Shown piece by piece: positions 32,332 to 53,838 of a stretch of DNA of 64,000 nucleotides (the first letter of the stretch is position 1; each line of letters opens with the position of its first letter). Location of the stretch: NCBI RefSeq assembly GCF_021311115.1, contig NZ_JAJTNP010000003.1, positions 369,732 to 433,731 on the forward strand, given 5' to 3'. The translations under genes and the position numbers were made by a program. This stretch comes from Chryseobacterium gwangjuense (GTDB lineage Bacteria > Bacteroidota > Bacteroidia > Flavobacteriales > Weeksellaceae). The notes beneath the pieces were generated by a model. The model was not told the DNA's origin and searched no databases. It worked only from the letters and a program-made list of their open reading frames with translations.

Positions 32332-32368
32332 AAGGGATTGTAGAGTTTACAGAAAGAATATAAAAATA

Positions 32369-32555: not shown

Positions 32556-32584
32556 TTAATTTGTTTAATCTAGGTTTAATTGAA

Positions 32585-34831: not shown

Positions 34832-34929
34832 AGAATTGTAAATCAATATTATACAGAAATAAAAAATTACCCCAAAAAAAGCTTGTCATTTTTTCTCAGT
34901 TTTACAATGTTAATTTAAAACTAAATAAA

Positions 34930-35208: not shown

Positions 35209-35219
35209 TCAAAATTGTA

Positions 35220-35477: not shown

Positions 35478-35479
35478 AA

Positions 35480-36577: not shown

Positions 36578-36583
36578 TTTAGT

Positions 36584-36867
36584 TTGCGGTATTGCACTCC
36601 TGTGTTTGCGGTATTGCGCTCTCTCCAATTGCGGTATTGCACTCTCTGAAGTTAAGAAAATGTTAAAATTTTAGTTTTTACCGTCAGCTTTGCGGTATTG
36701 CGCTCTTTTCCACATCAAATTTTTAGCTGAAAATTAGCAATTGGGAAAATTCTTAGTGAATTCACCAATTGTTTGCGGTATTGCGCTCGGACATAATTGA
36801 TGTTTTTGCGGTATTGCACTCTTGTTTTTGCGGTATTGCACTCCTGTCACTTGCGGTATTGCACTCC
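36584..36867. repeat. Iteron array: candidate plasmid-type origin (oriV)
   Basis: Eight direct copies of the 17-bp core TTGCGGTATTGC(A/G)CTC start at 36584, 36606, 36629, 36690, 36773, 36806, 36828 and 36851. Two groups of three are spaced 22-23 bp, two helical turns; the others are 61, 83 and 33 bp apart. Position 13 is A in five copies and G in three. A ninth, incomplete copy (TTTGCGGGAATTAC) lies near 36902. The spacers are AT-rich. The array follows the initiator gene directly, so it is the likely replication origin. Confidence 0.85.
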
Positions 36868-36998
36868 TGTCATTTTCAACTCAAACGACTACCTGTAAAT
36901 GGTTTGCGGGAATTACTAAAATATATATTAAAAGTATTTAAAAGTTTTCTTTTTTATTAAAAGGAATTTTTGCTAATCAAAAAAAAAAAAATGAAAAA

Positions 36999-37889
36999 AT
37001 GAAAAATTGTAAACAGGTCAATTCTTGGCAATTGCTAGAAGTTCTCATTTCTCTAGGACACCTTCCAAAAAAACAAAATGAAAAAGAAGCTTGGTTTCTC
37101 AGTCCTTTCGGAATCGAAACTGAAGCATCTTTTAAGCTCGATAAGCGCCAAAATATTTGGTATTTATACTCAGAAGGCATTGGTGGTAATAACATCGATT
37201 TTTTAAAGAAATATTTTAATTATTCAATCAATGAAATTCTCTCCTGGGCATCCGAGAAAAGTTTTTCTTCTTTTCATCAGCAGACGGAAATTGAGAAGCC
37301 AAATTACAACATTACAGATGTTGCGGAAATTCAGAATTGGAACCTTAAAAAATATTTATTTGAAAGAGGTATAAGTCAAAGATCATTCAGATTTTTAAAA
37401 GAGATAAAATTTACGATCAATAATAAAAAATTGTATGCTGTTGGATTCGAAAATTTATCCGGAGGATGGGAACTTAGAAATTCATTTTACAAAGGTTCAC
37501 TTTTGAAAAAAGATATTTCGATAATTAAAAATGATAGCAATAAAATTGTTGTTTTTGAAGGTTTTTTGGATGCACTTTCTTATATCGAATTTCAAGAAAA
37601 ATTGAAAGAAGACATTCTAATTCTGAATTCAATTTCGATGTTAAACAAAGCCAAAAATTATCTTCAAAACTATTCGGAAATATTACTTTTTCTCGACAAT
37701 GATCCTGCCGGAAAAAAGACAAAAGATGCACTGTTGTTTTCGTTTTCCAATGCAGTAGATTATAGTTTTATATATAAAGATTACAAGGATTTTAATGAGT
37801 TTCTCGTGGCTGATAAGGGTGGATTTATCCAGCAAGACGAAACTGGGCAGAGCCACTGTTTCATCTTGCCCCTTCGGGGAAATAACTGA
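36999..37889 (+). CDS. Toprim/primase-like protein with degenerate zinc-finger domain
   Basis: 296 residues. The N-terminal part keeps the shape of a DnaG CHC2 zinc finger ('SPFGIETEASFKLDKRQNIW' and 'EGIGGNNIDFLKKYF') but the zinc-binding Cys/His positions are replaced. A Toprim domain follows with 'VVFEGFLDALSY' (catalytic Glu) and 'LLFLDNDPAGKKT' (DxD). Such proteins are common in Bacteroidota mobilizable elements. It may prime element replication or transfer. The last 25 residues are encoded in the GC-rich stem region at 37811-37893. Confidence 0.85.
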   Translation: MKNCKQVNSWQLLEVLISLGHLPKKQNEKEAWFLSPFGIETEASFKLDKRQNIWYLYSEGIGGNNIDFLKKYFNYSINEILSWASEKSFSSFHQQTEIEKPNYNITDVAEIQNWNLKKYLFERGISQRSFRFLKEIKFTINNKKLYAVGFENLSGGWELRNSFYKGSLLKKDISIIKNDSNKIVVFEGFLDALSYIEFQEKLKEDILILNSISMLNKAKNYLQNYSEILLFLDNDPAGKKTKDALLFSFSNAVDYSFIYKDYKDFNEFLVADKGGFIQQDETGQSHCFILPLRGNN

Positions 37890-37893
37890 CCGT
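37811..37893. other. Candidate origin of transfer (oriT)
   Basis: A GC-richer island in an AT-rich element. It contains a 15-17-bp inverted repeat: GCAAGACGAAACTGG (37832-37846) pairs with 37853-37869 around the loop GCAGAG, with one G-T wobble and a 2-nt bulge. A second hairpin, CCCC-TTC-GGGG, follows directly (37870-37880). It lies between the replication genes and the relaxosome genes, as oriT does in many mobilizable elements. There is no T run, so it is not a normal terminator. Confidence 0.5.
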
Positions 37894-37995
37894 CAATGAA
37901 TTACAATATTTAATCTTTTTAAAACTATATATCAGGGATATATAAATCTCTTGAAAAGCCGTATTCATCGAAGTTATTACATATAAATCAATATA

Positions 37996-38412
37996 ATGGA
38001 ATCTAATAAAAAGCCAAATACAACAATTGCTATTTCTCAACAAGACCTAAAAAGACTGGAGAGCTTTGTAAGAAAAAAAGGACTTTCGAAGAAAGAATTT
38101 ATTACAGTTTCATTAGATTTTTTTGAGAGAACCGGACTTGATCCGGTTAAACACGAATCTCCAAAAACTGAACTTGAAAAAGTGATAAAAAGAATAGATC
38201 AGATTATCGCTTTTATAAAAACTCAGGAGAAAGAAACTATTCGTCCAAGTTTTGAAGCAATCGTTTCGAGTGAGGAAAGAATTAAAAATGATCTTTCAAA
38301 AATTCTGAAAATTGAACATTTTAATGAGTTCATCAGAGGGTTTAATTCTTTTGCTATGGAAACAAAAAATTCTTTGAAATTATTAAATCAAAGCAATCAC
38401 AATGAACATTAA
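37996..38412 (+). CDS. Mobilization accessory protein, BtgA/BfmA-like
   Basis: 138 residues. An N-terminal ribbon-helix-helix-like segment ('NTTIAISQQDLKRLESFVRK', then 'GLSKKEFITVSLDFF') is followed by a helical coiled region ('LEKVIKRIDQIIAFIKTQEK'). This layout fits the BfmA/BtgA mobilization family, which binds oriT and aids relaxase. Its 3' end overlaps the relaxase start by 11 bp, indicating coupled translation. It lies just after the putative oriT. Confidence 0.8.
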   Translation: MESNKKPNTTIAISQQDLKRLESFVRKKGLSKKEFITVSLDFFERTGLDPVKHESPKTELEKVIKRIDQIIAFIKTQEKETIRPSFEAIVSSEERIKNDLSKILKIEHFNEFIRGFNSFAMETKNSLKLLNQSNHNEH

Positions 38413-39163
38413 AATTCAGGGTGGCGAAAGTGGTAAATATTCAAATTCCGGAAGTTCATCAAACCTAATTGATTATTTAGAACATGAAGACCTGGAAAGA
38501 ATGAAGGAGGGGAAACAGGTTGAACATTTTTTTTCTCATTACCAGGATAGAGTTCCTTCAGCTGAAGTGGTTGAATCGCTTGATAACAATAAACAAAAAC
38601 TGACAAAAGAAGATGCAAAATTCTTTGTCATTACTGTGAGTCCTTCAGAAAAAGAATTACAGCAAATTGGCAAAACCTCCCAAGAAAGAAGTGACGCTTT
38701 GAAAGATTATGTAAGAAACGAAGTAATGCAGAAGTATGCGGAAAATTTTGGAAAAGGATTACAGGCTAAAGATATTATGTATTACGCTAAAATTCATCAC
38801 GAAAGAAACTTGAAAAATAATATTGATATGCATGTTCATATAGTTGTTAGTAGAAAATCTTTAGATAAAAGAATGAAACTTTCTCCAATGACGAACCATA
38901 AAAATACAACGAGAGGACAGGTTAAAGGAGGTTTTGACCGTAAAAATTTTATTCAAAAATCCGAAGAAGCTTTTGATAAGAAATTTGCCTTTCAAAGAAA
39001 CTATAAACAATCTTTTGAATATTGTAATGCGATCAAAAACGGTACAATCGAAGAAAGAAAAAGAGTAATAGAAACGGCAATAAAGCAGGAATCTTCAAAG
39101 CAATTTGAAATTAAAAAAACTATCGAACAAAATAAAAAAAATAACCAGGGCTTAAGCCTATAA
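38402..39163 (+). CDS. Relaxase-like mobilization protein
   Basis: 253 residues. A relaxase-type metal motif HxH appears in 'IDMHVHIVVSRK'; upstream are 'FFVITVSPSEKELQQIG' and 'IMYYAKIHHERN', consistent with the DUF5712/BtgB-like relaxases of small Bacteroidota elements. The C-terminus is short and basic, with no helicase part. It should nick oriT and lead DNA out through a helper transfer apparatus. The putative nucleophile tyrosine cannot be assigned with certainty. The coupling protein gene starts 12 bp downstream. Confidence 0.85.
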   Translation: MNIKIQGGESGKYSNSGSSSNLIDYLEHEDLERMKEGKQVEHFFSHYQDRVPSAEVVESLDNNKQKLTKEDAKFFVITVSPSEKELQQIGKTSQERSDALKDYVRNEVMQKYAENFGKGLQAKDIMYYAKIHHERNLKNNIDMHVHIVVSRKSLDKRMKLSPMTNHKNTTRGQVKGGFDRKNFIQKSEEAFDKKFAFQRNYKQSFEYCNAIKNGTIEERKRVIETAIKQESSKQFEIKKTIEQNKKNNQGLSL

Positions 39164-39175
39164 AAAATAATAAAC

Positions 39176-41080
39176 ATGGAAAAAGATCCAATTTTAATGA
39201 TAAAATTTATCATTGTCGCAATGTCTTTATTTTTATTGTATATGCTAGGAGTGAAGATTATAGGTATTAATTCATTCTTATACAATATATCTCAGCACGG
39301 ATTTTCAGTAGTGGTATCTCCTGAAGCAAGTTTCCTGGCAAGATTAAAATTTTTAGTTGTGGGAATTTGTTTCGGATATGCAGAGCTTTTATACATTCTG
39401 ATTCAATTCTGGATTGTAAAATCTTTAATTCCGCCACTGAAAACACCTTTCAATTTTTATAAAAAACTGATTTTTTATCCATTTGGGTTTATTAATAAAC
39501 AATTTACGGGCTTTTCATCTTTGAAAGATTCAAAGAAAAAATTTCAGGGATTAACTTTACAAACCAAAAAAAGAACCGTTCAAATTCCTAATCCTTTTCG
39601 TGGGATTTTGGTAATAGGCGGTCCCGGAGCAGGAAAATCTGAAAGTTTTGCAGTCCCCTTTATACGAGAGTTAGCACAAAAAAAGTTTTCAGGTATCTGT
39701 TATGATTTTAAATATCCGGCACTGGCAAATGATATTGAACTTTTTTATTCAGATTCGGGTATTAAGCATTATGTTTTGAATTTTAATGATTCACTTAAAA
39801 GCCATAGATGTAACCCTTTAAATCCAAAATATTTACCTCATTCAGCGTATGCAAGGGAATATGCTTCTGCCATCACTAAAAATTTGATGAAAGAATCTAT
39901 CAAGAAAGAGGATTTTTGGTCACGTTCTGCAACAGATCTTCTGACAGCATGTATTTGGTTTCTGAAGAAAGAATATCCTAAATATTGTGATCTTCCACAT
40001 ACATTAGCATTGATTGCGACAAATCACACTGATTTAATTGCTTTACTATCTTCAAATTCCGAAACCAAGGCAATGATATTGTCGCTTGCTACAGCTCTAG
40101 AGAGCGAAGCAAATTCACAATTAGCAGGAGTAGTGGGATCATTACAGGGAGCAGTAGCACAGATTAATACACCGGAGTTTATGTATATTTTCGGAGGAGA
40201 GGATTTTGATTTGAATATTAATAATCCGGAAAATCCAATTGTTTTGACGGTGGGGAATAATCCTTCCATTGCAACGACATTAGCTCCTTTGTGTAGTTTG
40301 GTTATATCAGTTGCTGCAAAACAATTGAATCAACCTCGTAAACACCATTCTTTTGTATTACTGGATGAATTTCCAACTGTTTTTATTAACGATATCCAAA
40401 CTCTTCCAAATACGGGAAGAAGTAATAAGATTGCAAGTATGTTTTTCTGCCAGGATCTTTCACAGCTTACGGATGGTTATACGAAAGAAAAAGCAGATGT
40501 GTTGTTTGCGAGTTGTCTAAATCATTTTTACGGTCAGGTTTCCAGTAGTCATACTGCAGATATTCTCAGTAAACAGTTTGGTAAGAAAGATCAATTTTTT
40601 GAAAGCAGTAATACTTCACGTCATTTTCTAAATCCATTTAAGAGAAACGTTGGTCAAAGTCGATCTGTACAAGAAAGAGACGTTTTCAGAAATTCAGTTT
40701 TTATGGAGCTACCGGTTGGTGAATTCATTGGAAGAGTTGCCGAAAGTTCTGAAGCTTATATTCATGAGAAATTTTTACCTGTTAAAAGAAAGCAATTAGC
40801 CTATCAGATAGACAGTAAGTTTAAAAACCAACTCGATTTCGTCATTACTGATTATTATGAAAAAGTTCGGGATGAAGTCAATGAAATTATTTCTCTTTTC
40901 AAAGGCGAAATTAATAAGAATGAAAGCAAGCAAGATCGATCCAGGCAAATGAATCCGGCTCCCGATAATAGTTCTGAAGAGTTTAGCGGAATCAACATAA
41001 TTGAAGATGAAGAATCTAATTCATCCACTGAGCTTGAAGAAAATGAAAGAAATTTTAAGTTTTCAAGCAGAAGTCTCTAA
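39176..41080 (+). CDS. VirD4/TraG-type coupling ATPase
   Basis: 634 residues. Two N-terminal transmembrane helices ('MIKFIIVAMSLFLLYMLGV' and one near residue 60-80) anchor the protein. The cytoplasmic ATPase has Walker A 'VIGGPGAGKSESF' and Walker B 'SFVLLDEFPTVFI'. It couples the relaxosome to a type IV secretion channel. No VirB-type genes are present in the element, so a channel must come from elsewhere. The acidic, serine-rich C-terminal tail is typical of the group. Confidence 0.93.
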   Translation: MEKDPILMIKFIIVAMSLFLLYMLGVKIIGINSFLYNISQHGFSVVVSPEASFLARLKFLVVGICFGYAELLYILIQFWIVKSLIPPLKTPFNFYKKLIFYPFGFINKQFTGFSSLKDSKKKFQGLTLQTKKRTVQIPNPFRGILVIGGPGAGKSESFAVPFIRELAQKKFSGICYDFKYPALANDIELFYSDSGIKHYVLNFNDSLKSHRCNPLNPKYLPHSAYAREYASAITKNLMKESIKKEDFWSRSATDLLTACIWFLKKEYPKYCDLPHTLALIATNHTDLIALLSSNSETKAMILSLATALESEANSQLAGVVGSLQGAVAQINTPEFMYIFGGEDFDLNINNPENPIVLTVGNNPSIATTLAPLCSLVISVAAKQLNQPRKHHSFVLLDEFPTVFINDIQTLPNTGRSNKIASMFFCQDLSQLTDGYTKEKADVLFASCLNHFYGQVSSSHTADILSKQFGKKDQFFESSNTSRHFLNPFKRNVGQSRSVQERDVFRNSVFMELPVGEFIGRVAESSEAYIHEKFLPVKRKQLAYQIDSKFKNQLDFVITDYYEKVRDEVNEIISLFKGEINKNESKQDRSRQMNPAPDNSSEEFSGINIIEDEESNSSTELEENERNFKFSSRSL

Positions 41081-41121
41081 ATCAAACAATCATTAAATAA
41101 TTATAAAAAAACAAAAAAGTT

Positions 41122-41298
41122 ATGAAAATACTACAGAGCAAAATTTCTGTTTGGGGCATTGTAACCCTATTAATATTAATGATCTTTTTGATCTCAATTG
41201 CAATAACAAAAGATTCAGTTAAAACAACAGCGGAAAAGCCGAAAGTAGATTATAAAGAACTTGATAAGGCTTTGTTTGGAACTACAGAAAATAATTGA
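41122..41298 (+). CDS. Small single-pass membrane protein
   Basis: 58 residues (ATG at 41122, TGA at 41296). One transmembrane helix, 'WGIVTLLILMIFLISIAIT', is followed by a charged tail ('EKPKVDYKELDKALFG'). It lies 41 bp downstream of the coupling protein gene on the same strand, so it may be a membrane partner of it. Short, but its coding character is clear and its position conserved-looking. Function unknown. Confidence 0.65.
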   Translation: MKILQSKISVWGIVTLLILMIFLISIAITKDSVKTTAEKPKVDYKELDKALFGTTENN

Positions 41299-41360
41299 AA
41301 TCTTTTTTGACAAAAATTAAAAAATTTATTTAATGAAATAATTTTGTAAAAATTTTTAAT

Positions 41361-42560
41361 ATGAAAAATCCATTCACAATGACCGAAAAACAAATCAATA
41401 TTTGTAAGAATTCTCTTGAAGAGTTAAAGATTTTATACCTAGAAAATCAACACTTTTATACTCCTGTTGACGTTTACTATAAGCCTTCAGGTAAACAATT
41501 TAAAAAGTGGGCTTTACTTAGTTGCAATGAGCATGATTGTGAACCTTTTGAACAGGATATTCAGGATGCAAGGATATTAAGACGCTCTAAAAAATGTCCG
41601 GAATGTCTTTCTATAATTCAAAGTGAAAATACTCGCATTCCTATTGTTGAACTTAATAGAAGAATTCAACTTTCAACAGAGCCATTAGTAATAAACAAAC
41701 AGACTGTTATTAAATATTCTGAAAAATTACATAATAACAATACTGTAGTAATGGTTAAATGTAATTTGTTTGGTCATCATAAAGAAATGTTTCCTCAAAC
41801 CGCAGTGTCGATTGGGAAAAACAATATCTGTCCCGAATGCTGTAAAACAAGAGATTACAAAAAGAAGAATGGTGAAGATCTCATTGACAAAATAAATGAT
41901 ATTTTAAAAAATAAGAACAACTCTTTTTCATTCTTTGGTTCTATAAACCGAAATAATAAAGGTATTATTTTTTATGAATTAATTTGTGAAAATTGTGGAT
42001 GTTCCGAATGGGAAAGAGAAAAGTATGTTGAATCTGTAAAATGTAAAGTTTGCTACCCAAATGATACCCTTGGTGAAAGTAGAGTTATCAAATATTTAAA
42101 CTTTCAAAATATAACTTTTAAAAAGCAAAAGAAATTCCCTGGACTGAAAAATAATATGGAATTAAAATGTGATTTTTTTATTCCAAAACTGAATTTAATA
42201 ATTGAGTATGATGGACATCAACATTATTATCCAATTGACTATTTTAAAGGGTTTAAAAGCTTTAAAAATACAATAAAGTGTGATTGGATTAAGAATAGAT
42301 ATGCGTTGAAAAACAGAATAAATATTTTGAGAATTCCTTTTAAAGAATATGATAATCTGGAAAATCTAATAGATGACGCTATTGCCAAAATCAATAGCCA
42401 AGAGCACTCATTTAAAAACTATTATAATTTTTTAAATGTTTACAGAATAAACTACATTTCTATAATTGTAAATAAAAGAATGAGGTTAAAGAAAATATTA
42501 CTCGGAAATAAAAGAAAACCGTATTTTTTATCCGATCTGGATAAAAAGAAATATCAATAA
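41361..42560 (+). CDS. Zinc-finger protein with DUF559/Vsr-like nuclease domain
   Basis: 399 residues. Several Cys pairs suggest two or three zinc fingers: 'CPECLS', 'NICPECCKTR', 'CENCGCSEWE' and 'CKVCYPN'. The C-terminal domain ends in 'DFFIPKLNLIIEYDGHQHYY', matching the conserved core of PD-(D/E)xK nucleases of the DUF559/Vsr type (D, E-x-D-G-x-Q-H). It is probably a DNA endonuclease; homing or defence roles are both possible. It is the last backbone-like gene before cargo. A short hairpin (42662-42676) lies in the gap after it. Confidence 0.75.
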   Translation: MKNPFTMTEKQINICKNSLEELKILYLENQHFYTPVDVYYKPSGKQFKKWALLSCNEHDCEPFEQDIQDARILRRSKKCPECLSIIQSENTRIPIVELNRRIQLSTEPLVINKQTVIKYSEKLHNNNTVVMVKCNLFGHHKEMFPQTAVSIGKNNICPECCKTRDYKKKNGEDLIDKINDILKNKNNSFSFFGSINRNNKGIIFYELICENCGCSEWEREKYVESVKCKVCYPNDTLGESRVIKYLNFQNITFKKQKKFPGLKNNMELKCDFFIPKLNLIIEYDGHQHYYPIDYFKGFKSFKNTIKCDWIKNRYALKNRINILRIPFKEYDNLENLIDDAIAKINSQEHSFKNYYNFLNVYRINYISIIVNKRMRLKKILLGNKRKPYFLSDLDKKKYQ

Positions 42561-42730: not shown

Positions 42731-43489
42731 ATGAAAAACAAAATCAATTTACTAATTATCAGTGCATTAATATTTTGTTCTAATGTGCTTTACTGCAATT
42801 CAATCGATCAGGAAATTACTGATCAGAATTTTAAAATGTTCTTTTCTTGCGGATCGGAAAATTTTGAAAATATCCCAGCAAGCTCCAGTTCTTTTGAATC
42901 AAATAGCTGGTTAAATAATAATATTACATGGACGGCTTCGGACTCCAGAACCGATCAAACAATTAATAGTAAAGCAATTGTTATCAGAAATGGTAGTCTT
43001 ACGAGTTCTATTATTACAGGAGGAATTAAAAGTCTTACTGTCACTACACAATTAAAATTTTCAGGAAATCCGGGAAACCTTATTCTGGAAATTAATGATA
43101 TCCAAGTTGGAACAATACCTTTTAATTCCGGAGTTGTGACAACAACACTTGATAATATAAATATCGCAGGAAATATCATTATTAAGCTTGTAAATCCTAA
43201 TACGGGGCAAAGAGTTGCTATTGATGATCTTTCCTGGTCATGCTATTCAAATTTGGGAATTAGTGAAATTAATAAGGTGGCTCAGCTTTCAATTTATCCT
43301 AATCCAATTAAAAACGGTGAATATCTGTATCTTAATAGAAAGGTAAATGAGGTTCTTATTTATAATAGTGAAGGGAGACTTATTAAGAAATCAAACTTAA
43401 GAAGCAATTCAATATTAATAGATAATCTACTGAAGGGTATGTATCTTCTTAAAACAGAAAATATGACACATAAATTTATAGTTAATTAA
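42731..43489 (+). CDS. T9SS-secreted protein with C-terminal sorting domain
   Basis: 252 residues with a signal peptide ('LIISALIFCSNVLYCNS'). A beta-rich domain begins 'ENFENIPASSSSFESNSWLN' and ends 'RVAIDDLSWSCYSN'; this domain also occurs beside secreted nucleases in Bacteroidota. A type A T9SS sorting domain follows: 'LSIYPNPIKNGEYLYL' to 'LLKTENMTHKFIVN'. No catalytic domain is present, so it may be a truncated or adapted secreted protein. A damaged copy of its centre lies at 49781-49952 beside the inner att site. A terminator-like stem follows. Confidence 0.85.
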   Translation: MKNKINLLIISALIFCSNVLYCNSIDQEITDQNFKMFFSCGSENFENIPASSSSFESNSWLNNNITWTASDSRTDQTINSKAIVIRNGSLTSSIITGGIKSLTVTTQLKFSGNPGNLILEINDIQVGTIPFNSGVVTTTLDNINIAGNIIIKLVNPNTGQRVAIDDLSWSCYSNLGISEINKVAQLSIYPNPIKNGEYLYLNRKVNEVLIYNSEGRLIKKSNLRSNSILIDNLLKGMYLLKTENMTHKFIVN

Positions 43490-44390: not shown

Positions 44391-44467
44391 AATTTTTCAG
44401 TCGTCACTTCCTCAGACTTCTCGTTTCTTCAAAACGCTTGTCATTCGTTCTTTCTTTGTTCAAAATT
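44391..44467. repeat. Cargo-border repeat R (copy 1)
   Basis: About 77 bp including CTTCCTCAGACTTCTCGTTT and AACGCTTGTCATTCGTT. A close copy (about 88 percent identical by eye) lies at 49993-50069. Copy 1 is immediately before cargo slot 1, copy 2 immediately before cargo slot 2. Confidence 0.8.
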
Positions 44468-44507: not shown

Positions 44508-45437
44508 TTATAGATCCCATTGTAAGATCCCATTTTCATCCGCTTTAATATGCTGTTTAACTGGAATAAATTTTGCGCCGCTTTTTCCATCTGGTGCTGG
44601 AATAAACCAAACTAACATTGCACCAGCAAATTTTAATTTTTTGTCAACAACAGATGGTTTTAAGACAATATTTTCCTTTTGAAATGAATTTACAATACTA
44701 GGATATATAATGCCTTCGATCTCATATTGTGTTTTCAAGTTTTCTATTTTATTAAAAACTCTGTCACTATAATAATTACTTAGTTTATAGGAATTTCCTT
44801 CATCAAATCTAGCAAATTGATCTGCAAAAAACATTAAATTATTATAATCATATTCTGAGTTTATTTGCTTTTTGATTTGTTCATTTGCTTTTATAATATC
44901 TTCACTTTGTATTGTTTCTGACTTAAAGCCTACTGTATCATAAAAATCTTTAAAAGTATTTTCAGAATGGGGGATTTGAGCTAATGTTAGAGGTTCAGTT
45001 ATTTGCCACATTCCTATTGTAAATAAGGATGAACCTTTATCTAAAACTTCTCTTCCGTTAACAATGCATTCTGTGCAGGCAATGGGATAATCAAAAGCTC
45101 CATAGAACATTGACTCGTTAGGTTTGTTGGCTCTGCCAAAATCCGCTATTAAATACTTTAAACTTTCAGGAATGTAAGATATCTCATCAATCTTATCAAA
45201 AGGTTTATTTTCTGTATTTTTTATTTCACGAGCTCTGTAAATTAGATTAAGACCTCCCGCCTCTCTTTGATTTAGTTCGAAAGGTAAATTTTGAAAATTA
45301 TATATTGAAATTGGAATTCTCGGAAATGCAGTATTACATAATTTTAGAATTTGATCATAATCAAAATTGTCTCCATTTTCGAGTAAAATATTCTTTATTT
45401 TTTGCGTTTCTTCAATATTTATATATGTTGCTTTCAT
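44508..45437 (-). CDS. RES-domain protein (NAD+-degrading toxin-like)
   Basis: 309 residues. RES-fold residues are visible: Tyr67-Arg68 in 'NLIYRAREI', Arg102, Tyr112 and Glu123 in 'GRANKPNESMFYGAFDY' and 'ACTECIV', and 'EGIIYPSIVNSFQKENIVLK' (about 241-260) late in the domain. RES toxins such as MbcT and Res degrade NAD+ and are usually held by an Xre/DUF2384 antitoxin. No such antitoxin is present here; the gene upstream on the same strand encodes an unrelated helical protein. The family call is pattern-based. It belongs to cargo slot 1. Confidence 0.8.
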   Translation of the reverse strand: MKATYINIEETQKIKNILLENGDNFDYDQILKLCNTAFPRIPISIYNFQNLPFELNQREAGGLNLIYRAREIKNTENKPFDKIDEISYIPESLKYLIADFGRANKPNESMFYGAFDYPIACTECIVNGREVLDKGSSLFTIGMWQITEPLTLAQIPHSENTFKDFYDTVGFKSETIQSEDIIKANEQIKKQINSEYDYNNLMFFADQFARFDEGNSYKLSNYYSDRVFNKIENLKTQYEIEGIIYPSIVNSFQKENIVLKPSVVDKKLKFAGAMLVWFIPAPDGKSGAKFIPVKQHIKADENGILQWDL

Positions 45438-45506: not shown

Positions 45507-46136
45507 TTATATATTTCCTATATTTGATTTAAATTTATCAATTCTTTGATAGAATTTTGTCATTTTATCCCCACTCATAGCAATAATAGGTTTCTTTTTA
45601 ATTGCTTTTTTAGAAACTTGATGTAATAGATTTGCTATTTTTTCAAGCTCCAATAATGATTCATGAGTTAAGAGATATTTAACCGCTTTATCTGTGAAGT
45701 TCTTGTTTTTAATATCTTCTCTAATACCATACAAAGTAACTAAATCATATCTGTTACTTACATTTAGTAAGGTGTATTTAGTAAGTAAAAGTTCTTTGTT
45801 TTTTTTACTCAACAATTTTAAACGATTCTTTGCTCTTGATTCAACTTCACCATAAAGTTTTTGGATATTATGACCTTTTCCTCGTGCAGATTTATAGGCA
45901 TCTTCTGGTGTTTCAGAGGATTTAGATAATGCAACTATAATGGCTTTTAAATCTGTTTCAATTGCCATTATTAAATCAACATATATTTTACTATACCAAT
46001 TTCTATCATGAAATTCATCTATTCGAATCAAATGATGTACTCGCCATAGAAACTGATTTGCATCAGTATACATTGAATCACAAATGGTCTTTTTAAGAAA
46101 TGTATTTGAATTAAATTTTGGCTGTAATTTTTTCAT
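45507..46136 (-). CDS. Helical protein, possibly HEPN-like, partner of RES gene
   Basis: 209 residues, wholly helical in appearance, basic at the C-terminus. 'SARGKGHNIQKLYGEVE' resembles the 'HdLkkL' region seen in HEPN-type and other nucleotidyltransferase-partner proteins, but the R-x4-6-H active site is not visible, so the HEPN idea is weak. It lies 69 bp upstream of the RES gene in the same direction. Its start faces the ATPase gene at 46243 across 106 bp. It could be an antitoxin for the RES protein, a proposal based only on position. Confidence 0.5.
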   Translation of the reverse strand: MKKLQPKFNSNTFLKKTICDSMYTDANQFLWRVHHLIRIDEFHDRNWYSKIYVDLIMAIETDLKAIIVALSKSSETPEDAYKSARGKGHNIQKLYGEVESRAKNRLKLLSKKNKELLLTKYTLLNVSNRYDLVTLYGIREDIKNKNFTDKAVKYLLTHESLLELEKIANLLHQVSKKAIKKKPIIAMSGDKMTKFYQRIDKFKSNIGNI

Positions 46137-46242: not shown

Positions 46243-49200
46243 ATGAGAGTATTAGAAGAATTGAAGAAAAGAAGCCAGCTTGAAAAGGATTCTGTAAAAA
46301 TAGATTTGAAACTTTATAATCTAATTGATGATATAGAAAAAGAAGCAAGAAATCATCTTAAAAGAGTTATAACTGTTTTACAGGAATTTGATATTCATGA
46401 TGAAAAACACAGCGAGAAAGTTATTAAAAATATTGAAGATTTATTAGGAAATACAGTAAATGAGCTTTCTTCTTATGAGTTATTTTTATTACATTCATCA
46501 GCATTTTTGCATGATTGTGCAATGGCTCCTTCAGAATATGAAATTAATGTTATGAAGCTAACAGAAGGGAATGAGAACTTTTATTCTGAAAGAAATTCTA
46601 TTAAACATGATCTAAAAGCACCATTAAAGCATACAGAAGCATTAAATATTATAAATTCTAACAAGGAATTCTTGTATAAAGATTTTGGTTTCCCAAGTAA
46701 ATGGATATTTTGTTCTTCTACCGAAAAAGATTTTACAAATTATTTAGCAGATCTATTAGTCGATTACCAAAATTTTAGAAATGGGTTTGCTAAAGAATTA
46801 AAAGGCGTTAATGATATTGAGGATTTTAAATCTATTAATGAATTTATTAGAATAGATTATATTAGAGCAACACATCATATAAGAATTGAAACTTATGTTA
46901 AAAACTTAGAAACTAAATTTGGAAATGCATTTGAGCAACCATCCTGGGGCAAAAAGTTAGCAAATGATTTAGCAAAAATTTGTAGATCACATGGTGAAAA
47001 TATAGAATATACAGAACAATTAAGTGTAAATTCTCAATATTACGGAAGTTCCTCAGCAAATTTACAAATGGTTGCAATGATGTTGAGATTAGGAGATATA
47101 ATACATTACAGCTTTGACAGGGCGCCTTTAAATATACTTTCGGCAAAAATTTTTAAATCTGAATATAGCTTTCAAGAATGGGCAGTAAAAAATAGTGGAG
47201 CAAACTATTCAATTGAAAATGGTCTGATATCGTATCGAGCTTATTGTGAAAGCCCTGAAACATATTTTAAGCTTCATCAGTATATAGACTGGATTGAAGT
47301 AGAGATTCAAAATTATTTTAAATTTCAAAGAAAATGGAATGTTGAGTATATAAAGAATCTTAATGATAAGGTAGAGAGAATCAATGTATCTAATGATGAA
47401 TCACAATTTTCACCTAAGAGAGGATTAGGCTTTTCGCTAAATCAAAAGAAAATTCTCGAGTTACTAAAAGGAGTTGGATTATACAAAGATGAATTTGCAT
47501 GTTTGAGAGAATTGTATCAGAACTCATTAGACGCTTGCAGATGCATGGTTTCTAAGAAGAGAAAAGTAAATATTCAAACTAAGGGACAAATAGAGTTTGG
47601 AATAGAAGAAAATGAAGTGGGAAGGTATATTTACGCGTTAGATAACGGAATAGGCATGAATAAAGATATTATTGAAAAATATCTATTAAATATAGGAAAT
47701 TCTTATTATAATTCTTCTGATTTTTATAAGGAACAATCTAAATGGGATGGAGGTTTTACTCCTACATCACAATTTGGAATTGGAATTCTATCTTGCTTTA
47801 TGATAGGTACGAAAATAGAAATAGTTACAAGATCAGAAGGAGGAGATTATGTCTCTTGTATAATAACTGGAGTTCATGATAATTTTTATTATAAGCCAGC
47901 AGTAATGTCAGATAAGGAAAGAATTGTAAACACAGGAACCCTTATTAAAGTTTATTTAAATGATAAAATCTCACAAAATTTAGAAAATTGTAAGCTTGAT
48001 AAGACGGGACTCTTACTGCTAGGTATTCAGAAAAAATATGCTAAGTTTAAAGATATGTCAGAAATTTGGCAAAAGCATATATATCAGTTTATTAACAACT
48101 TTATTTCAATTGTTCCAGATGATATAGAAATTTTGGTAAAATTTAATGATGGTCAAGGCCTTCCAATATTCTCTAAACCTTTAAATGTTTTAGAGAATAA
48201 AGAAGTACTTGAGATAGATATTATTGAAGATGCAGAACCTCTTAATGACATACTCTTATGGAATCATAATAGAGCAGATGATGCACCAACTATTACTCAA
48301 ATACATGAAGAAATAAGTACGTATCCAATTAAAATTGTAAAGAATGATATCAGCTTTACGACTTTAATAAGCTTACCTAACAAAAACCTAGATTTTTCAT
48401 TTAAAAAGGTAAATGCAGGACGCTTCTTTCTAAAAAGTAATGATGGGTTATCAATTGATGGAATTTCCATTGATGATCGTCACTTAAGCCAATCTAAGCA
48501 TTATTTTACTCATCATCTTATACATTACGATGGGCATTTGGATTTTTATGGAGAATTGAGACCTATTATTTCTGTTGATAGAAAATCGATTATTTCTTAC
48601 CCTAAAGAATGTGAGAAACAAGCTAAGCAGATTTCAATAGACTATATTAAAAGAATCATTGAAATAGCCAGGGAGCATATTAAGACACATAATATTTTGG
48701 ACGATTCAACTGAATTTAATCTTGTGTGGGACTATGTTTTAGATAAAATAAACTTTGCTGATGTTTTATTCATTAATGAGCTGAGTGAAACAGAGTACGG
48801 AGACGTGCAGAGTAAAGAGTTGTCTGACATAGTAGGAAAGAATATTTCTATAAAAGAATTTATCCGTGCTAAAAAAATAAGTATTCATAATTTTGATTTT
48901 AAAGAAAAAACGCAACTAACACAGAAATTAATTTTATCAAAATTAATAAGTGCGGAATCTATAAATATAATTGATGGGATTGTTGAAATAAATATGCAAA
49001 AATTCAATAAGAATCATATATCTAATAATGGATATGGTGATTTGGATAGAGAACAACTTTTATTCAAAGCAAATGAATGGGGTGTTTTTGATAAGGATTT
49101 TGATCTAATAACAGGCTTATACCCTTTAATACCTGAAAGATTATTTAATAATCTTAATGATTTTGGTTTAAAAAAAGCAGGAAATTTAATAAAAGGCATG

Positions 49201-49668
49201 CATAACTACAGTAATGGATTACTGGGAGTTTTTTCTCAGTCACCGTTATTGGTTCACTCGAAGCTGGGGTTATACTTAGGTAAAAGTAGCATAAATCGAA
49301 ATAATTCTAATATTTATAATTTTGATAATAAAAGAGGTGACATTTGGATTATGGAATTAAATGATCGATATAGTTTTAACAGGCAAAAAAAAGCATGGGT
49401 TTTAATGGTGTTTGTTTCTCCTGTTGAATTGAGTGAAATTGATAAAAAAGAACTACTAAAGCATCACGATGACTTGGATTATATAAGAGGTATTAATGAA
49501 GGTTGGAGCTTATTAATAACATCTAAGAATAAAGATGGTGTTGTTATAATTGCTGGTAAAGCAACTCGTGAACAATTAGTAAATAAAATTTCTAATAATT
49601 TCTGGGAAGAGTATAGGGATTATGAATTTAAATTTACTGATGGAACGATAATGTCAAATGAAAATTAG
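46243..49668 (+). CDS. HD-domain/Hsp90-type (GHKL) ATPase, 1141 aa
   Basis: Two domains are readable. N-terminal HD domain (about 40-300): His52/Asp53/His56 in 'FDIHDEKHSEKV', the His90-Asp91 pair in 'SAFLHDCAM', 'RATHHIRIE' and Asp285 in 'LRLGDIIHYS'. A GHKL ATPase follows at about 395-520: N-box 'LRELYQNSLDACR' (Glu423, Asn427), G1 box 'ALDNGIGMN' (467-472) and G2 box 'SQFGIGILSCF'. The remaining 600 residues form an Hsp90-like middle region plus an unknown C-terminal part. Similar HD-Hsp90 fusions have been proposed as conflict (defence) ATPases. It is divergent from the RES pair. Its stop codon overlaps the inner att arm. Confidence 0.85.
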   Translation: MRVLEELKKRSQLEKDSVKIDLKLYNLIDDIEKEARNHLKRVITVLQEFDIHDEKHSEKVIKNIEDLLGNTVNELSSYELFLLHSSAFLHDCAMAPSEYEINVMKLTEGNENFYSERNSIKHDLKAPLKHTEALNIINSNKEFLYKDFGFPSKWIFCSSTEKDFTNYLADLLVDYQNFRNGFAKELKGVNDIEDFKSINEFIRIDYIRATHHIRIETYVKNLETKFGNAFEQPSWGKKLANDLAKICRSHGENIEYTEQLSVNSQYYGSSSANLQMVAMMLRLGDIIHYSFDRAPLNILSAKIFKSEYSFQEWAVKNSGANYSIENGLISYRAYCESPETYFKLHQYIDWIEVEIQNYFKFQRKWNVEYIKNLNDKVERINVSNDESQFSPKRGLGFSLNQKKILELLKGVGLYKDEFACLRELYQNSLDACRCMVSKKRKVNIQTKGQIEFGIEENEVGRYIYALDNGIGMNKDIIEKYLLNIGNSYYNSSDFYKEQSKWDGGFTPTSQFGIGILSCFMIGTKIEIVTRSEGGDYVSCIITGVHDNFYYKPAVMSDKERIVNTGTLIKVYLNDKISQNLENCKLDKTGLLLLGIQKKYAKFKDMSEIWQKHIYQFINNFISIVPDDIEILVKFNDGQGLPIFSKPLNVLENKEVLEIDIIEDAEPLNDILLWNHNRADDAPTITQIHEEISTYPIKIVKNDISFTTLISLPNKNLDFSFKKVNAGRFFLKSNDGLSIDGISIDDRHLSQSKHYFTHHLIHYDGHLDFYGELRPIISVDRKSIISYPKECEKQAKQISIDYIKRIIEIAREHIKTHNILDDSTEFNLVWDYVLDKINFADVLFINELSETEYGDVQSKELSDIVGKNISIKEFIRAKKISIHNFDFKEKTQLTQKLILSKLISAESINIIDGIVEINMQKFNKNHISNNGYGDLDREQLLFKANEWGVFDKDFDLITGLYPLIPERLFNNLNDFGLKKAGNLIKGMHNYSNGLLGVFSQSPLLVHSKLGLYLGKSSINRNNSNIYNFDNKRGDIWIMELNDRYSFNRQKKAWVLMVFVSPVELSEIDKKELLKHHDDLDYIRGINEGWSLLITSKNKDGVVIIAGKATREQLVNKISNNFWEEYRDYEFKFTDGTIMSNEN

Positions 49669-49744
49669 CCACTCTTTTGACCATTCTAGGAATGAGAAAC
49701 CTCTGAAATCATCTGATTTCAGAAGTTTTTTGCACCAAGGAACG
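49665..49744. repeat. Inner, decayed att/right-end copy
   Basis: TTAGCCACTCTTTTGACCATT, a hairpin AACCTCTGAAATC-x-GATTTCAGAAG, and a core at 49719-49744 that matches 22 of 26 bases of the attR core. The order and distances (54 bp from TTAGCC to core) equal those at 53690-53770 (55 bp). So this is an old right end, now mutated inside the element. Confidence 0.85.
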
Positions 49745-49780
49745 GGGTTTTTATGTATTTGAAATAACCACTTACACGAT

Positions 49781-49952
49781 TTTACTTGGACGGCTTCTGA
49801 TTCTGGAACTGAAATAATAAAGCTACTGTCATCAGGAATGGAAGTCTTACTGTCACTCACATTTAAAATTTGCAGGAAATCCTGGGAATCTTATTCTGAA
49901 AATTAATAATACCTCGGTTGGAACAATACCTTTCAATTCCCGAGTTGTGACT
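49781..49952 (+). pseudogene. Broken copy of the T9SS-secreted protein gene
   Basis: Matches the centre of the gene at 42731-43489: 'TGGACGGCTTC', 'AGTCTTACTGTCACT', 'GGAAATCCTGGGAATC' and 'TTGGAACAATACCTTT' occur in the same order, corresponding to about 42925-43145. Two internal deletions and lost reading frame leave no protein. It lies between the inner att site and repeat R copy 2, the same position that the intact gene has relative to copy 1. Confidence 0.85.
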
Positions 49953-49960
49953 TCAAATAG

Positions 49961-49983
49961 AGCTCCTAATTTAGGAGCTTTTG
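49961..49983 (+). terminator. Small hairpin with T-rich tail
   Basis: AGCTCCTAA/TTAGGAGCT stem followed by TTTTG, after the broken T9SS copy. Confidence 0.45.
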
Positions 49984-49992
49984 TATTATATA

Positions 49993-50069
49993 AATTTTTC
50001 AGTCATCACTTCCTCAGACTTTTCGTTTCTTCGAAACGCTTGTCATTCGTTGCTTCTTGGTTCAAAATT
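49993..50069. repeat. Cargo-border repeat R (copy 2)
   Basis: Collinear with 44391-44467, including CTTCCTCAGACTTTTCGTTT and AACGCTTGTCATTCGTT. It precedes the ATPase-subtilase cargo. Confidence 0.8.
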
Positions 50070-50127
50070 TCCAGAATTTAAACATTGACAATCTTCTATT
50101 TGACATTTCTCATTATAGATGTGTTTT

Positions 50128-50209
50128 TTTTGTATGGTTTTAAAAGTGTAAATAAAATTACCATACAAAATGTTTGCAAAATACTATTATATTGTTATTT
50201 TTGTATGGT
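50128..50209 (+). promoter_or_regulatory. Promoter with three TTTTGTATGGT operator half-sites
   Basis: TTG (50174-50176), exactly 19 bp, then TATTTTTG (50196-50203): a perfect promoter for the ATPase gene (ATG 50225). The 11-bp motif TTTTGTATGGT occurs at 50128-50138, inverted at 50160-50170, and again at 50199-50209, where it covers the -7 box and start site. This fits repression by a dimeric protein; the ATPase's own C-terminal HTH is a candidate. Confidence 0.6.
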
Positions 50210-50224
50210 ATATTTTATAATACA

Positions 50225-51358
50225 ATGAATAAAGAACTAAACAAAATTGATAATATATCTAAATATTTAATAGATCTTGTAACTGCAGGGATTATTGGTG
50301 ATACTAGAAAAGTTGAAGTGATTTCTCTTAGTTTAGCAAGATCTATTAGAAAATCGGATCCCGATGTTTCGTCTTCAATACAAAACATACTTGCTTTAAA
50401 TTCTTCCGCAGGAAGCAGTGCAGTAAGAAGTAATGGTAATATACCTATTCCTACTGATAATGATACACATTTAGAAATGGCTCGCATTATAAAACCCCAT
50501 TCTGATGGAGGAGTGCTTCCTGTTTTTAATGAGAGAATAAATATGTGGATTAATGATATTTTGGAAGAAAGAAACAACTTGAATACATTGTTAGCTTTTG
50601 ATATAAGTCCTTCTACTAATTTATTGTTAATAGGTCAACCTGGGACAGGTAAGACAATGCTTGCTCATTATATTGCATCTAAGCTTAATAAAAATTTAGT
50701 TATAATGGATCTTTCATCAAGTATTTCTAATTTAATGGGAAAAACAGGCCATAACATAAAAAAGGTTCTTAATTATGCAAAAGATACAGGAGCTGTATTA
50801 CTATTAGATGAGTTTGATGCAATTGCTAAGAAAAGAGATGATCAAACAGACCTTGGTGAAATAAAAAGAGTTGTAAACGTCCTTTTAATGGAGTTGGAGG
50901 ATTGGCCGATTTCTTCAATGTTAATTGCAACAAGTAATCACCCTGAATTGCTTGATAGGGCTATATGGAGAAGATTTGATCATGTAATAGAAGTTCCCTT
51001 GCCATCAACGGAGGAAGTGATCAAAATATTAAATCAAAACCTCCTTCAATTTTTAAATGATGATTTAAATAATATGTCCATTTTGCAGTTGCTTGCGGGA
51101 CTGCTCGATGGTAGAAGCGCGGCTGATATATGTAAGTTTACAAATAATGTTAAACGTCGTATTGCTTTAAAAGACGAAGATTTGATTATAGCATCACTTA
51201 ATGAACTTGAGTCACATTCAACAGATAAAAAAGTTCGAGGGAAATTTTGCATTCTTGCTAAAGAAATGTTAGGAAAAAAAATCACTGTAAGAAAGCTTTC
51301 AGAAATGACCGGCCTAAGCACGGCGGGTGTACAGCATCATATCTCTAAAATAAAATAA
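50225..51358 (+). CDS. AAA+ ATPase with C-terminal helix-turn-helix
   Basis: 377 residues from the ATG at 50225 (a longer open frame starts inside the promoter). After a 100-residue N-terminal region, the AAA core shows Walker A 'IGQPGTGKTMLAHYI' (about 137-144), Walker B 'VLLLDEFDAIAKK' (about 192-199), sensor 'MLIATSNHPELLDRA' and arginine finger 'WRRFDHVIEV'. The C-terminal 'KKITVRKLSEMTGLSTAGVQ' reads as a helix-turn-helix. It is 6 bp upstream of the subtilase gene, so the two are co-expressed. It may remodel or unfold the protease's substrate or control it. The HTH may bind the operator repeats upstream. Confidence 0.88.
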   Translation: MNKELNKIDNISKYLIDLVTAGIIGDTRKVEVISLSLARSIRKSDPDVSSSIQNILALNSSAGSSAVRSNGNIPIPTDNDTHLEMARIIKPHSDGGVLPVFNERINMWINDILEERNNLNTLLAFDISPSTNLLLIGQPGTGKTMLAHYIASKLNKNLVIMDLSSSISNLMGKTGHNIKKVLNYAKDTGAVLLLDEFDAIAKKRDDQTDLGEIKRVVNVLLMELEDWPISSMLIATSNHPELLDRAIWRRFDHVIEVPLPSTEEVIKILNQNLLQFLNDDLNNMSILQLLAGLLDGRSAADICKFTNNVKRRIALKDEDLIIASLNELESHSTDKKVRGKFCILAKEMLGKKITVRKLSEMTGLSTAGVQHHISKIK

Positions 51359-51364
51359 TTTAAT

Positions 51365-53653
51365 ATGAATAATAACCGAAAACCAATATTATACAAAGGA
51401 GAAGTTTATAGCAAACCTGTTTCGAAAAATGGTGGAGGGGGCCCTCTTAAACTTCCTATTTCTTATGAGGAAGCAAAGTATAGAATTAAGGATGATATCG
51501 ATAAGGTTCATGATACAATTCGGAGTCTACCAGAAACATCAAAGCTGCCTAATGAAGTTGTTGTTTGCATAAGAATGCATCCCGACTTTTCTGCAAAGAG
51601 CTATTACCCAGATTCTCTTTTTGATGGAAATAATGAGAAATTTGGATTACAAGAGGTTGGTTCAAGAATCTGGAGGACGGAAGATAATGAAGATCAAAAT
51701 CAATTTGAGGAATCAGGAAAACTTTTTTTTGTAAGAGGGACAGAGCAGGCATTGGACAAATTAAAGAATCATTTAGACAGACCACCATTCAGACTGACAA
51801 AAAAATTTACTGAAGATGTAAGGAAAATTATAAGTATTGATTTGCTATCTGAAGAAGAGCAAATATTGGGAATACCTGATGATTGGGAGAGAGGGTGTTT
51901 AGAAGCTGTACTTCATCCTTTTGAGATAGATCATGAAATAGCTTTTGATCATTTCATGAGTGTTCTGAATTCCTCTGGTGTAGATGTTGAAAGTATAAAA
52001 TATAAACAATATGATGAAGGAGTGACGTTTATTAGTCTTTATGGTGATCGAGAAGTTGTGAGGGCTTTATCCGGATATAATCCATTAAGAACATTACATC
52101 CTTTAGAAGCAAGAGATTTTAGTTCTATCGAAAGGGGAACTCCTATGTATGGAGCTCCAATCCCTCCACAATTTACAGGAAAATCCTCAATTGTTGTTGG
52201 TGTTATAGATGGAGGTTATATTCCAGGAAATCCAGCATTAGATCCGTATGTAGAATCTGAAGATTCAGTTCCGGGTACGGCAGTAGAATACTACCAGCAA
52301 CATGGTACTCAAGTGACTAGTGCAGTTTTATACGGTGCATTAAATAAATATAAAAATACCGATACTTTACCAGAGCCTAAGGTAAGTGTAAAGAATTTTA
52401 GAGTGTTGTCTTCTGATGCTTCTGATCCTGACCTTTACGAAGTAATTGATGCTATAGAAAAAATTGTTCCTGAAAATGACAATATTAAGATATATAATCT
52501 AAGTATGGGACCTGCGGGACCTATATTAGATGATCACATAAGCCGATTTACATTTGCTTGCGATTTACTTATTCAAAAATATAGTGTTCTATTTTGTACG
52601 GCAGTAGGAAATGATGGTCATATAGTTGGTTATAACAGAATACAAGCTCCTGCTGATATGGTTAACGGTCTTGCTGTTGGTGCTTATTCAAAAATTGATA
52701 CTGAGATTGCTAGAGCCCCATACAGTTGTGTTGGTCCAGGAAGAGAAGGAAATAAATTAAAGCCTGATTTATCAGCATTCGGTGGATGCTCTCAAAACCC
52801 AATACAATTAATGGGTGAAAATCAAGATTTAAGAATTTTAACAGCTGGAACGAGCTTTTCAAGTCCTTTAGTTTCTGCTGCAAGCGCTCATTTGGTAGGT
52901 TATAGCAATGATACTATCAATAGTTTCGTTGCAAGAGTGTTACTCATACATGGTGTATCTGAGGCTACTGATAGTCATAGCTTTGAATTAGGGCACGGAA
53001 TACTACCGGATGATATTCAACAGCTTGTCACGTGTCCTGAATCTTCTTATACAATTATATATAGTGGAGAAGTAGAGCCTGGTAAATTTATAGAATTACC
53101 TATCCCTTGGACTGAAGAGATAGATAAAGGTAAAGTGAATTTTCGATGGACGGTTTCAACTCAAACCAATGTAGATCCACAGAGCCCAGATGATTACTCT
53201 ACATCTTCTGTAGTGACTTCTTTTTATCCCCATACCTCAAAATTTAAATTTAAAAATGGTGGATCAACAAAGATTGTTGATGTTATGAAAGATCCAGATA
53301 AGGAAACTGAACTTCTATCGATAGGATGGTCTAGGGAATCTCCTTTTCCTGTAAGTGAATCTGGGCAAACTCCTTATCAGGTAGAAAATGATTTACGAGC
53401 TGATTTTAAATGGGATAGTATGGATACTAGAAGAAAAAATAAAAATGCAGATAATGTATATAATCCTATGTTTCACTTACATGCTCTGGAGCGTGGAAAA
53501 AGATATAAATCTGAGAAAATAAAATATACATTAGTGTTAACTGTAACAACTCCTAAGTCAGAAGTAGATTTATATAGTAAGGTTAGAGCTAAATATTCAG
53601 CATTACTTCCTATTAGTTTAGATCTTGAAAATAGAATCTCTGTAGCGTTGTAA
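51365..53653 (+). CDS. Cytosolic subtilase (S8) paired with AAA+ ATPase
   Basis: 762 residues with no signal peptide, so an intracellular protease. The catalytic triad is Asp282 ('VGVIDGGYI'), His313 ('YQQHGTQVTSAV') and Ser497 ('TAGTSFSSPLV'), with the oxyanion-hole Asn416 in 'TAVGNDGH'. The first 270 residues lack subtilase motifs and may sense or inhibit; the last 230 form a beta-rich region. The gene follows the AAA+ ATPase by 6 bp. ATPase-subtilase pairs are known from defence islands as uncharacterised candidates; the target is unknown. It is the last gene of the element. Confidence 0.9.
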   Translation: MNNNRKPILYKGEVYSKPVSKNGGGGPLKLPISYEEAKYRIKDDIDKVHDTIRSLPETSKLPNEVVVCIRMHPDFSAKSYYPDSLFDGNNEKFGLQEVGSRIWRTEDNEDQNQFEESGKLFFVRGTEQALDKLKNHLDRPPFRLTKKFTEDVRKIISIDLLSEEEQILGIPDDWERGCLEAVLHPFEIDHEIAFDHFMSVLNSSGVDVESIKYKQYDEGVTFISLYGDREVVRALSGYNPLRTLHPLEARDFSSIERGTPMYGAPIPPQFTGKSSIVVGVIDGGYIPGNPALDPYVESEDSVPGTAVEYYQQHGTQVTSAVLYGALNKYKNTDTLPEPKVSVKNFRVLSSDASDPDLYEVIDAIEKIVPENDNIKIYNLSMGPAGPILDDHISRFTFACDLLIQKYSVLFCTAVGNDGHIVGYNRIQAPADMVNGLAVGAYSKIDTEIARAPYSCVGPGREGNKLKPDLSAFGGCSQNPIQLMGENQDLRILTAGTSFSSPLVSAASAHLVGYSNDTINSFVARVLLIHGVSEATDSHSFELGHGILPDDIQQLVTCPESSYTIIYSGEVEPGKFIELPIPWTEEIDKGKVNFRWTVSTQTNVDPQSPDDYSTSSVVTSFYPHTSKFKFKNGGSTKIVDVMKDPDKETELLSIGWSRESPFPVSESGQTPYQVENDLRADFKWDSMDTRRKNKNADNVYNPMFHLHALERGKRYKSEKIKYTLVLTVTTPKSEVDLYSKVRAKYSALLPISLDLENRISVAL

Positions 53654-53689
53654 TTAATTTGTTAGTGATAATCAATAATAAAAATATTA

Positions 53690-53712
53690 TTAGCCACCCT
53701 TTTGACCACCCT
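53690..53712. promoter_or_regulatory. Right-end CCACC direct repeat (candidate recombinase or Xis site)
   Basis: TTAGCCACCC-TTTTG-ACCACCCT: CCACC at 53694 and 53706, 12 bp apart, as at the left end (17 of 21 positions equal). It lies 55 bp inside attR. Confidence 0.5.
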
Positions 53713-53721
53713 GAAAATCAA

Positions 53722-53757
53722 AAACCTCTGAAAATCAATCGATTTCAGAGGTTTTTT
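53722..53757. terminator. Hairpin between element and tRNA-Leu
   Basis: AAACCTCTGAAAATC/GATTTCAGAGGTTT stem with T run on the plus side and an A/T-rich tail on the minus side. It can end the subtilase message. On the minus strand it lies directly after the tRNA, so it may also end that transcript. Confidence 0.7.
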
Positions 53758-53770
53758 GTACCCAGGACCG
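53745..53770. repeat. attR: right direct repeat
   Basis: TCAGAGG, six T, GTACCCAGGACCG. Equal to attL (32385-32411) apart from one T in the run. Positions 53759-53770 are the last 12 bases of tRNA-Leu, so the intact tRNA is kept on this side. Confidence 0.9.
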
Positions 53771-53838
53771 GGATCGAACCGGTACTCCTAAGAACTGGTG
53801 TTTGAGACCAGCGCGTCTACCAATTCCGCCACCTGGGC
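53759..53838 (-). tRNA. tRNA-Leu (anticodon CAA)
   Basis: On the minus strand a full cloverleaf can be drawn: acceptor arms GCCCAGG/CCTGGGT, D-arm with GGTAGA, anticodon arm CTGGT/ACCAG with loop CTCAAAC (anticodon CAA), a variable arm and T-arm ACCGG-TTCGATC-CCGGT. The CCA end is not encoded. It is the integration target of the element; 12 bases of its 3' end are duplicated at attL. Confidence 0.95.

Follow-up and report, generated by a model that had tools for sequence, protein, structure and literature searches.

The window analyzed here is a stretch of 64,000 nucleotides from Chryseobacterium gwangjuense (contig NZ_JAJTNP010000003.1), whose single tRNA-Leu(CAA) gene is the integration target of a composite island. 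The island and its target comprise the following features.

32366-32413, + strand: attL, with a hairpin and the core TACCCAGGACCG (32400-32411)
32545-32557, + strand: left copy of the TTAGCCACCC motif, a candidate integrase arm site
32561-33808, + strand: tyrosine integrase (Arm-DNA-bind_5, SAM_5 and Phage_integrase)
33812-42560, + strand: backbone, with an HTH protein, a Toprim/Zn-ribbon protein, a BfmA-like mobilization protein, a DUF5712 protein, a TraG-type coupling protein and ORFs without a family match
42731-43489, + strand: intact gene for a T9SS sorting-tail protein
44391-44467, + strand: R (copy 1), a 77-bp repeat and candidate mobilization site
44508-45437, - strand: RES-like ORF of cargo 1 (23.0 bits, just under the Pfam cut-off of 23.2)
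45507-46136, - strand: 209-aa partner ORF of cargo 1 (97.6% identical in genome G160)
46243-49668, + strand: HD-CE and HATPase protein of cargo 1 (1,141 aa), with its stop codon within the right-end motif
49664-49746, + strand: internal right-end att copy, with the decayed core CACCAAGGAACGGG at 49733-49746
49747-49956, + strand: T9', a broken T9SS gene and putative remnant of a second element
49993-50069, + strand: R' (copy 2), 92% identical to R
50225-51358, + strand: IetA-like AAA ATPase of cargo 2 (377 aa)
51365-53653, + strand: IetS-like S8 protease of cargo 2 (762 aa)
53689-53772, + strand: attR, the right end adjoining the tRNA gene, with its core at 53759-53772
53758-53838, - strand: tRNA-Leu(CAA)

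Judged by its genes, the complete part of the island is an integrative mobilizable element (IME) with predicted excision and transfer. An integrase and att sites, the attL and attR cores being identical over 12 nt, are present at a specific target together with a mobilization module that comes without a full mating-pore apparatus; no mating-pore family was found among the 10 backbone ORFs scanned. The DUF5712 protein we take to be the relaxase, and the left copy of the TTAGCCACCC motif is a candidate arm site because it lies ahead of the integrase. Eight 22-bp units with TTGCGGTATTGC are clustered within the backbone at 36583-36871. PADLOC gave no match for the RES-like ORF, its partner ORF or the HD-CE/HATPase protein.

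Between the two cargos lies a second right end, which the initial annotation had placed at 49665-49744, with the same distances as in attR. Our alignment bears this out at 49664-49746. The outer attR reads TTAGCCACCCTTTTGACCA, then a hairpin, then GTACCCAGGACCGGG, and both right ends carry a TTAGCCAC[C/T]CTTTTGACCA motif, a hairpin and a core, with a motif-to-core spacing of 69 nt in the internal copy and 70 nt in attR. The 83 bases of the copy align with the 84 bases of attR with three single-base gaps and a local score of 89, against a mean of 15, a standard deviation of 3.7 and a maximum of 57 for 1,953 random 88-mers drawn from the surrounding 28 kb. When the right end was searched against its own genome, attR, the internal copy and the hairpin and core of attL were followed by short partial matches; no further copy of an entire right end was found elsewhere in that genome. 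The internal core differs from attR by three substitutions within its first 12 bases and continues as CGGGG, unlike the CGAAC that follows the core in all seven left ends compared (the window, G165, G002, G126, G057, G140 and G011). An origin of the internal copy from a tRNA-Leu(UAA) target was ruled out, as the core there is TACCCCGGGCGGG.

The stop codon (TAG) of the final cargo 1 gene falls inside the right-end motif (49664-49668), as it does at attR in G160, so that cargo meets att directly, with no spacer between them; the last cargo ORF before an internal att site in G100 (5932-6654) likewise stops inside the motif. Right-end copies are also found away from tRNA genes (near 9366 in locus L055, near 15619 in L049 and near 6655 in L160), and in G089 and G100 the sequences beyond the core resemble each other. 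Such copies suggest older tandem arrays or other targets.

A broken copy of the T9SS gene and a copy of R had been described behind the internal right end, in the order seen ahead of cargo 1. Both are present and the order stands; the spacing does not correspond: T9' and R' are approximately 40 bp apart, but in slot 1 the T9SS gene is set off from R by an 82-aa ORF and about 900 bp. The two alignments that the initial annotation had proposed, of the internal region with slot 1 and of the internal right end with attR, both bore the proposal out, the second with a score far above chance. T9' consists of two ungapped blocks, at 49779-49812 (79% identical to the T9SS gene) and 49858-49956 (85%). 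In a gapped alignment, homology sets in immediately past the internal core, corresponding to roughly nt 157 of the T9SS gene, with a soft left border that looser gap scoring moves into the hairpin.

Besides antisense ORFs of up to 120 aa, the interval from 49747 to 53689 contains only T9', R', IetA and IetS. Flanked by att sites, devoid of integration and transfer genes, and with a T9', an R' and a right end that match the family's elements, this remnant has the makeup of a cis-mobilizable element (CIME). The IetA-like gene more likely starts at the ATG at 50225, which corrects an earlier start, because stops lie upstream of that ATG in both relatives with 96% identical copies. The PADLOC profiles of the IetAS anti-phage system cover most of the length of both proteins (E 7.6e-81 for IetA and 6.9e-54 for IetS), but the scores remain below the NCBIfam equivalog cut-offs for IteA (221 of 510 bits) and IteS (143 of 900 bits). 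We therefore call the AAA ATPase and S8 protease pair IetAS-like, a divergent member only, with a predicted anti-phage function.

Each of the two cargos stands alone before attR in other genomes. In G160, the order is R, partner ORF, HD-CE/HATPase gene, attR and tRNA-Leu, with the HD-CE/HATPase gene 79% identical and directly ahead of attR; the RES-like ORF was not found next to the partner ORF in this genome, whose T9SS gene and R are about 5 kb apart, with other ORFs in between. Close copies of IetA (96%) were found among the 173 genus genomes, besides the window's own, in G006 and G080, the next best match being at 34%. Both genomes carry a T9SS fragment, a truncated R, IetA, IetS, attR and tRNA-Leu(CAA) in this order. 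The initial part of R was recognized by eye in these two sequences; the R search over the 173 genomes gave no match there. No window backbone protein was found to the left of the T9SS fragment in either genome. Pfam likewise gave no mobilization family in the 10 of 26 ORFs searched on that side, their matches being type VI-secretion-like, TonB-receptor, chitinase-like, of unknown function or none.

Undeleted tandems are found in G126 and G057, where a right-end copy with its core is followed about 190 bases further by an integrase; G002 also has an integrase after a right-end copy, but its shorter right-end match makes this case doubtful. The cargo pair of the window was seen in an undeleted tandem in no genome searched. 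A comparable loss is evident in G035, in which a fused int::T9SS ORF, R and cargo lie in this order between matching hairpin-core ends at tRNA-Leu(UAA).

We consider it highly probable that the island originated as a tandem of two related elements, one of which was reduced to a remnant with its cargo and right end. The initial annotation had likewise proposed a second tandem element with a deleted backbone, and the occurrence of each half on its own in other genomes gives this reading good support. An IME with a DUF5712/BfmA mobilization module would thus sit at the 3' end of tRNA-Leu(CAA), adjoined at the same tRNA gene by what remains of a second, related IME. The latter would have lost the stretch from its left end, a few bases from the att core, through the middle of its T9SS gene, and would have retained R', the IetAS-like defense genes and its right end. 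Decay of the first element's right end, which now lies inside the island, would have left attL and the outer attR as the borders of a single composite, about 21.4 kb long and with two cargos. The direct observations are the repeats, the genes present, the halves standing apart and the undeleted tandems of relatives; we infer that the element's own integrase carried out the integration, that the composite may still move as a single unit, and that its cargo is retained under selection. The deletion junction falls a few bases from where the internal core stops on one side and near nt 157 of the T9SS gene on the other. A core-like site in that gene, pointing to an integrase-made deletion, was looked for, and none was convincing.

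Several observations fit the tandem reading less well. CGGGG may represent the deletion junction or an attR-type flank, the three bases at issue being too few to tell the two apart. The T9' block is closer to the window's T9SS gene (87.4%) than to L042-type genes (slightly lower, 85.6%), contrary to R' and its preceding hairpin, which are 95.7% identical over 116 nt to L042/L043 and thus nearer to these than to the R region of the window itself (90.6% over 85 nt). G160 has no adjacent RES-like ORF and has extra ORFs between the T9SS gene and R, and the intact element is distal to the tRNA gene in the window but proximal to it in G126 and G057.

Finally, the left flank is rearranged. An RskA-like gene on the + strand adjoins attL (31522-32420). 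Among 47 typed att rows, 43 had RskA on the same contig, and in 12 of these 43 genomes, our own included, it lies within 60 kb on the element side of this tRNA site. No tRNA gene was found in the 1.5-kb flanks of 29 RskA loci. In all 11 other genomes with RskA within 60 kb, the gene is oriented opposite to that of the window, and the left side of the island therefore seems to be inverted here.

One rival is a version of the tandem reading itself and departs from it in the order of events alone. A CIME (att-T9'-R'-IetAS-attR) may have come first, with the complete element entering its left att site later, so that no undeleted tandem ever existed at this locus. We give this sequence of events a little less than an even chance, and its probability overlaps that of the tandem reading. 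Backbone-less derivatives do stand alone, G035 retaining both ends, and the G006 and G080 islands show no window backbone protein left of the T9SS fragment. Decay followed by accretion is the usual order in a review of such elements (PMC5704250). The model of that review has the newcomer enter the attR on the tRNA side, however, which would leave the remnant on the other side (PMC5704250), and no feature of the window tells the two orders of arrival apart.

Less probable by far, and in our view improbable, is that homologous recombination through the shared T9SS gene, R or att imported IetAS together with T9' and R', without any second integration. R does act as a seam: among 496 pairs of R sites, 12 share sequence only before R, 9 only after it and 21 on both sides. 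These pairs are not independent, however, and 4 of the 9 after-only pairs involve G052, whose R flank is probably a deletion remnant; its 45 nt ahead of R are the same as in G002. A swap would also replace one cargo with another, whereas in the window neither cargo has been lost and a second right end is present. We regard it as very unlikely indeed that the similarity is due to chance or that the right end, the T9SS gene and R were duplicated locally with no second element involved: a duplication would give the same order, and the best match of T9' is, by a narrow margin, the T9SS gene of the window itself, but R' and its hairpin are nearer to L042/L043, the right-end score excludes chance, and IetAS-attR forms an element end in other genomes.

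R itself is not confined to islands of this kind. A 77-bp unit with sharp borders, it was found, at E 0.001 or better, in 37 of the 173 genus genomes, with only weak matches in six of these; with a plasmid variant of R as the query, 33 of 320 family genomes matched at E 1e-6 or better, all within one of 33 genera. It occurs on small contigs, one of which was scanned (L058, 11.5 kb) and encodes Rep_3, NikA-like and MobA/VirD2-like proteins, on a mobilizable C. shandongense plasmid (69 kb), and on a C. rhizoplanae plasmid (22 kb) that PLSDB classifies as non-mobilizable, yet for which a relaxase-domain protein is annotated. On the 22-kb R plasmid, two genes near R (L073 15673-18293, NZ_CP084348.1) are annotated as thiol-activated cytolysin family. 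The initial annotation had counted R and the T9SS gene in unrelated settings without att sequences against its own proposal; for R such settings exist on plasmids, but the tandem reading survives them because it relies on att, T9' and cargo in combination.

The presence of R on plasmids rules it out as a part of the att system and makes it an independent site. A dispersed genomic repeat was ruled out as well, the window's own genome having two good copies, as was a structured RNA, for which RNAalifold gave nothing beyond a hairpin of 5 bp, none of whose pairs had changes in both bases; Rfam returned no match near a gathering score for R. That R is not tied to att sites, and that it is associated with plasmids and relaxases, was not part of the initial annotation.

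A relaxase gene (PF03432 or PF18976) lies within 12 kb of R on the same contig at 24 of 37 sites, one of them being R', whose nearest relaxase gene belongs to the neighboring element. All 24 of these genes are on the strand of R; randomly placed sites would give about 1.3%. The 12-kb limit was our choice, and in G163 a relaxase gene lies at 14.5 kb on the opposite strand. The search covered 31 genomes, second pieces of one gene being typed once, and the 37 sites omit the weakest matches (G055, G071, G083, G143, G151 and G157) and two partial ones (G085 and G150). The 13 sites without a relaxase gene within 12 kb include G163, two weak G120 sites that we counted as misses and two sites on cut contigs (G015 and G104) that end a few kb from R. 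Several of the relaxase-less sites lie beside att and are probably remnants.

We regard R as a candidate mobilization site, most likely either an oriT or a mimic of one. Sites of the oriT type are known to be common to IMEs and helper or plasmid elements, and oriT mimicry is likewise known. R resembles these in being a short oriented site common to otherwise different mobilizable elements. It differs in that a pattern search for the RP4-type nick motif found none in R; R carries only a weak hairpin, and nicking would be putative. Nor is R present on every complete element. Among 48 stretches of 3 to 47 kb, in which a missing integrase is no proof of absence, 11 carry an integrase of the window's family, 9 with R before attR and 2 (G126 and G011) without. 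The relaxase type is not single either, with PF18976 accompanying R in some IMEs and PF03432 relaxases on plasmid-like contigs and in other IMEs.

A fixed cargo position between R and attR, as the initial annotation had proposed, holds for part of the loci: in 15 of 31 other fetched R loci, R is followed by a right end at a distance of 1.3 to 11.7 kb. Of these 15, 13 lie at tRNA-Leu sequence (L047 at a UAA gene, and L066 with a tRNA that runs into the end of the stretch), the exceptions being L049 and L055. Among 20 cargo proteins chosen from nine loci, 14 had a PADLOC match at E 0.001 or better, five of these matches being weak or to candidate families only, and 6 had none; the matches include QatA, QatC, PtuA, DrmMII, LmuB, a type I methyltransferase and a defense reverse transcriptase. 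G101 has a second R-like stretch within its cargo slot (L042 9625-9679, 78%), which is degenerate and perhaps one more trace of serial cargo change.

These findings lead us to a wider proposal, which we advance tentatively and with clearly less than even confidence: R would be an oriT or oriT mimic, so far observed in Chryseobacterium alone and common to different IMEs and plasmids; the interval from R to attR would be a slot in which anti-phage genes are swapped; and backbone deletion would have left minimal islands, with defense or other cargo, such as the remnant in the window and G035, which could be excised and mobilized in trans by a resident relative. If R is an oriT, then the remnant and G035 are backbone-less islands with att, R and cargo.

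At the level of listed entries, our literature search found no description of the window locus or of R. The process to which we attribute the island is of a known kind, namely, the decay of an IME to a CIME, followed by accretion. CIMEs and the tandem accretion of IMEs and ICEs have reportedly been treated by Pavlovic (2004) and Bellanger (2011). A review (PMC5704250) sets out a three-step model in which an IME integrates, decays to a CIME and then undergoes accretion with a further IME, tRNA 3' ends being among the sites. As in that account, the window combines a remnant that has att sites at both ends, but neither integration nor transfer genes, with an intact related element beside it at the 3' end of a tRNA gene (PMC5704250); it differs in that the remnant lies on the tRNA side, the internal core has decayed, R is kept and the host belongs to the Bacteroidota. 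NBU1 and MTnPi4, two Bacteroidota IMEs that the same source places at the 3' end of tRNA-Leu, share the tyrosine integrase and the target with the window element (PMC5704250). The latter has BfmA-like and DUF5712 proteins and a TraG-type coupling protein of its own.

In conclusion, the island is a clear sequence case of anti-phage genes piling up at one tRNA gene through serial landing. Such growth of bacterial islands, with machinery lost and cargo retained after serial arrival, is a recognized process, and the 77-bp R provides a landmark by which cargo slots, and perhaps transfer origins, may be read from Chryseobacterium genomes.
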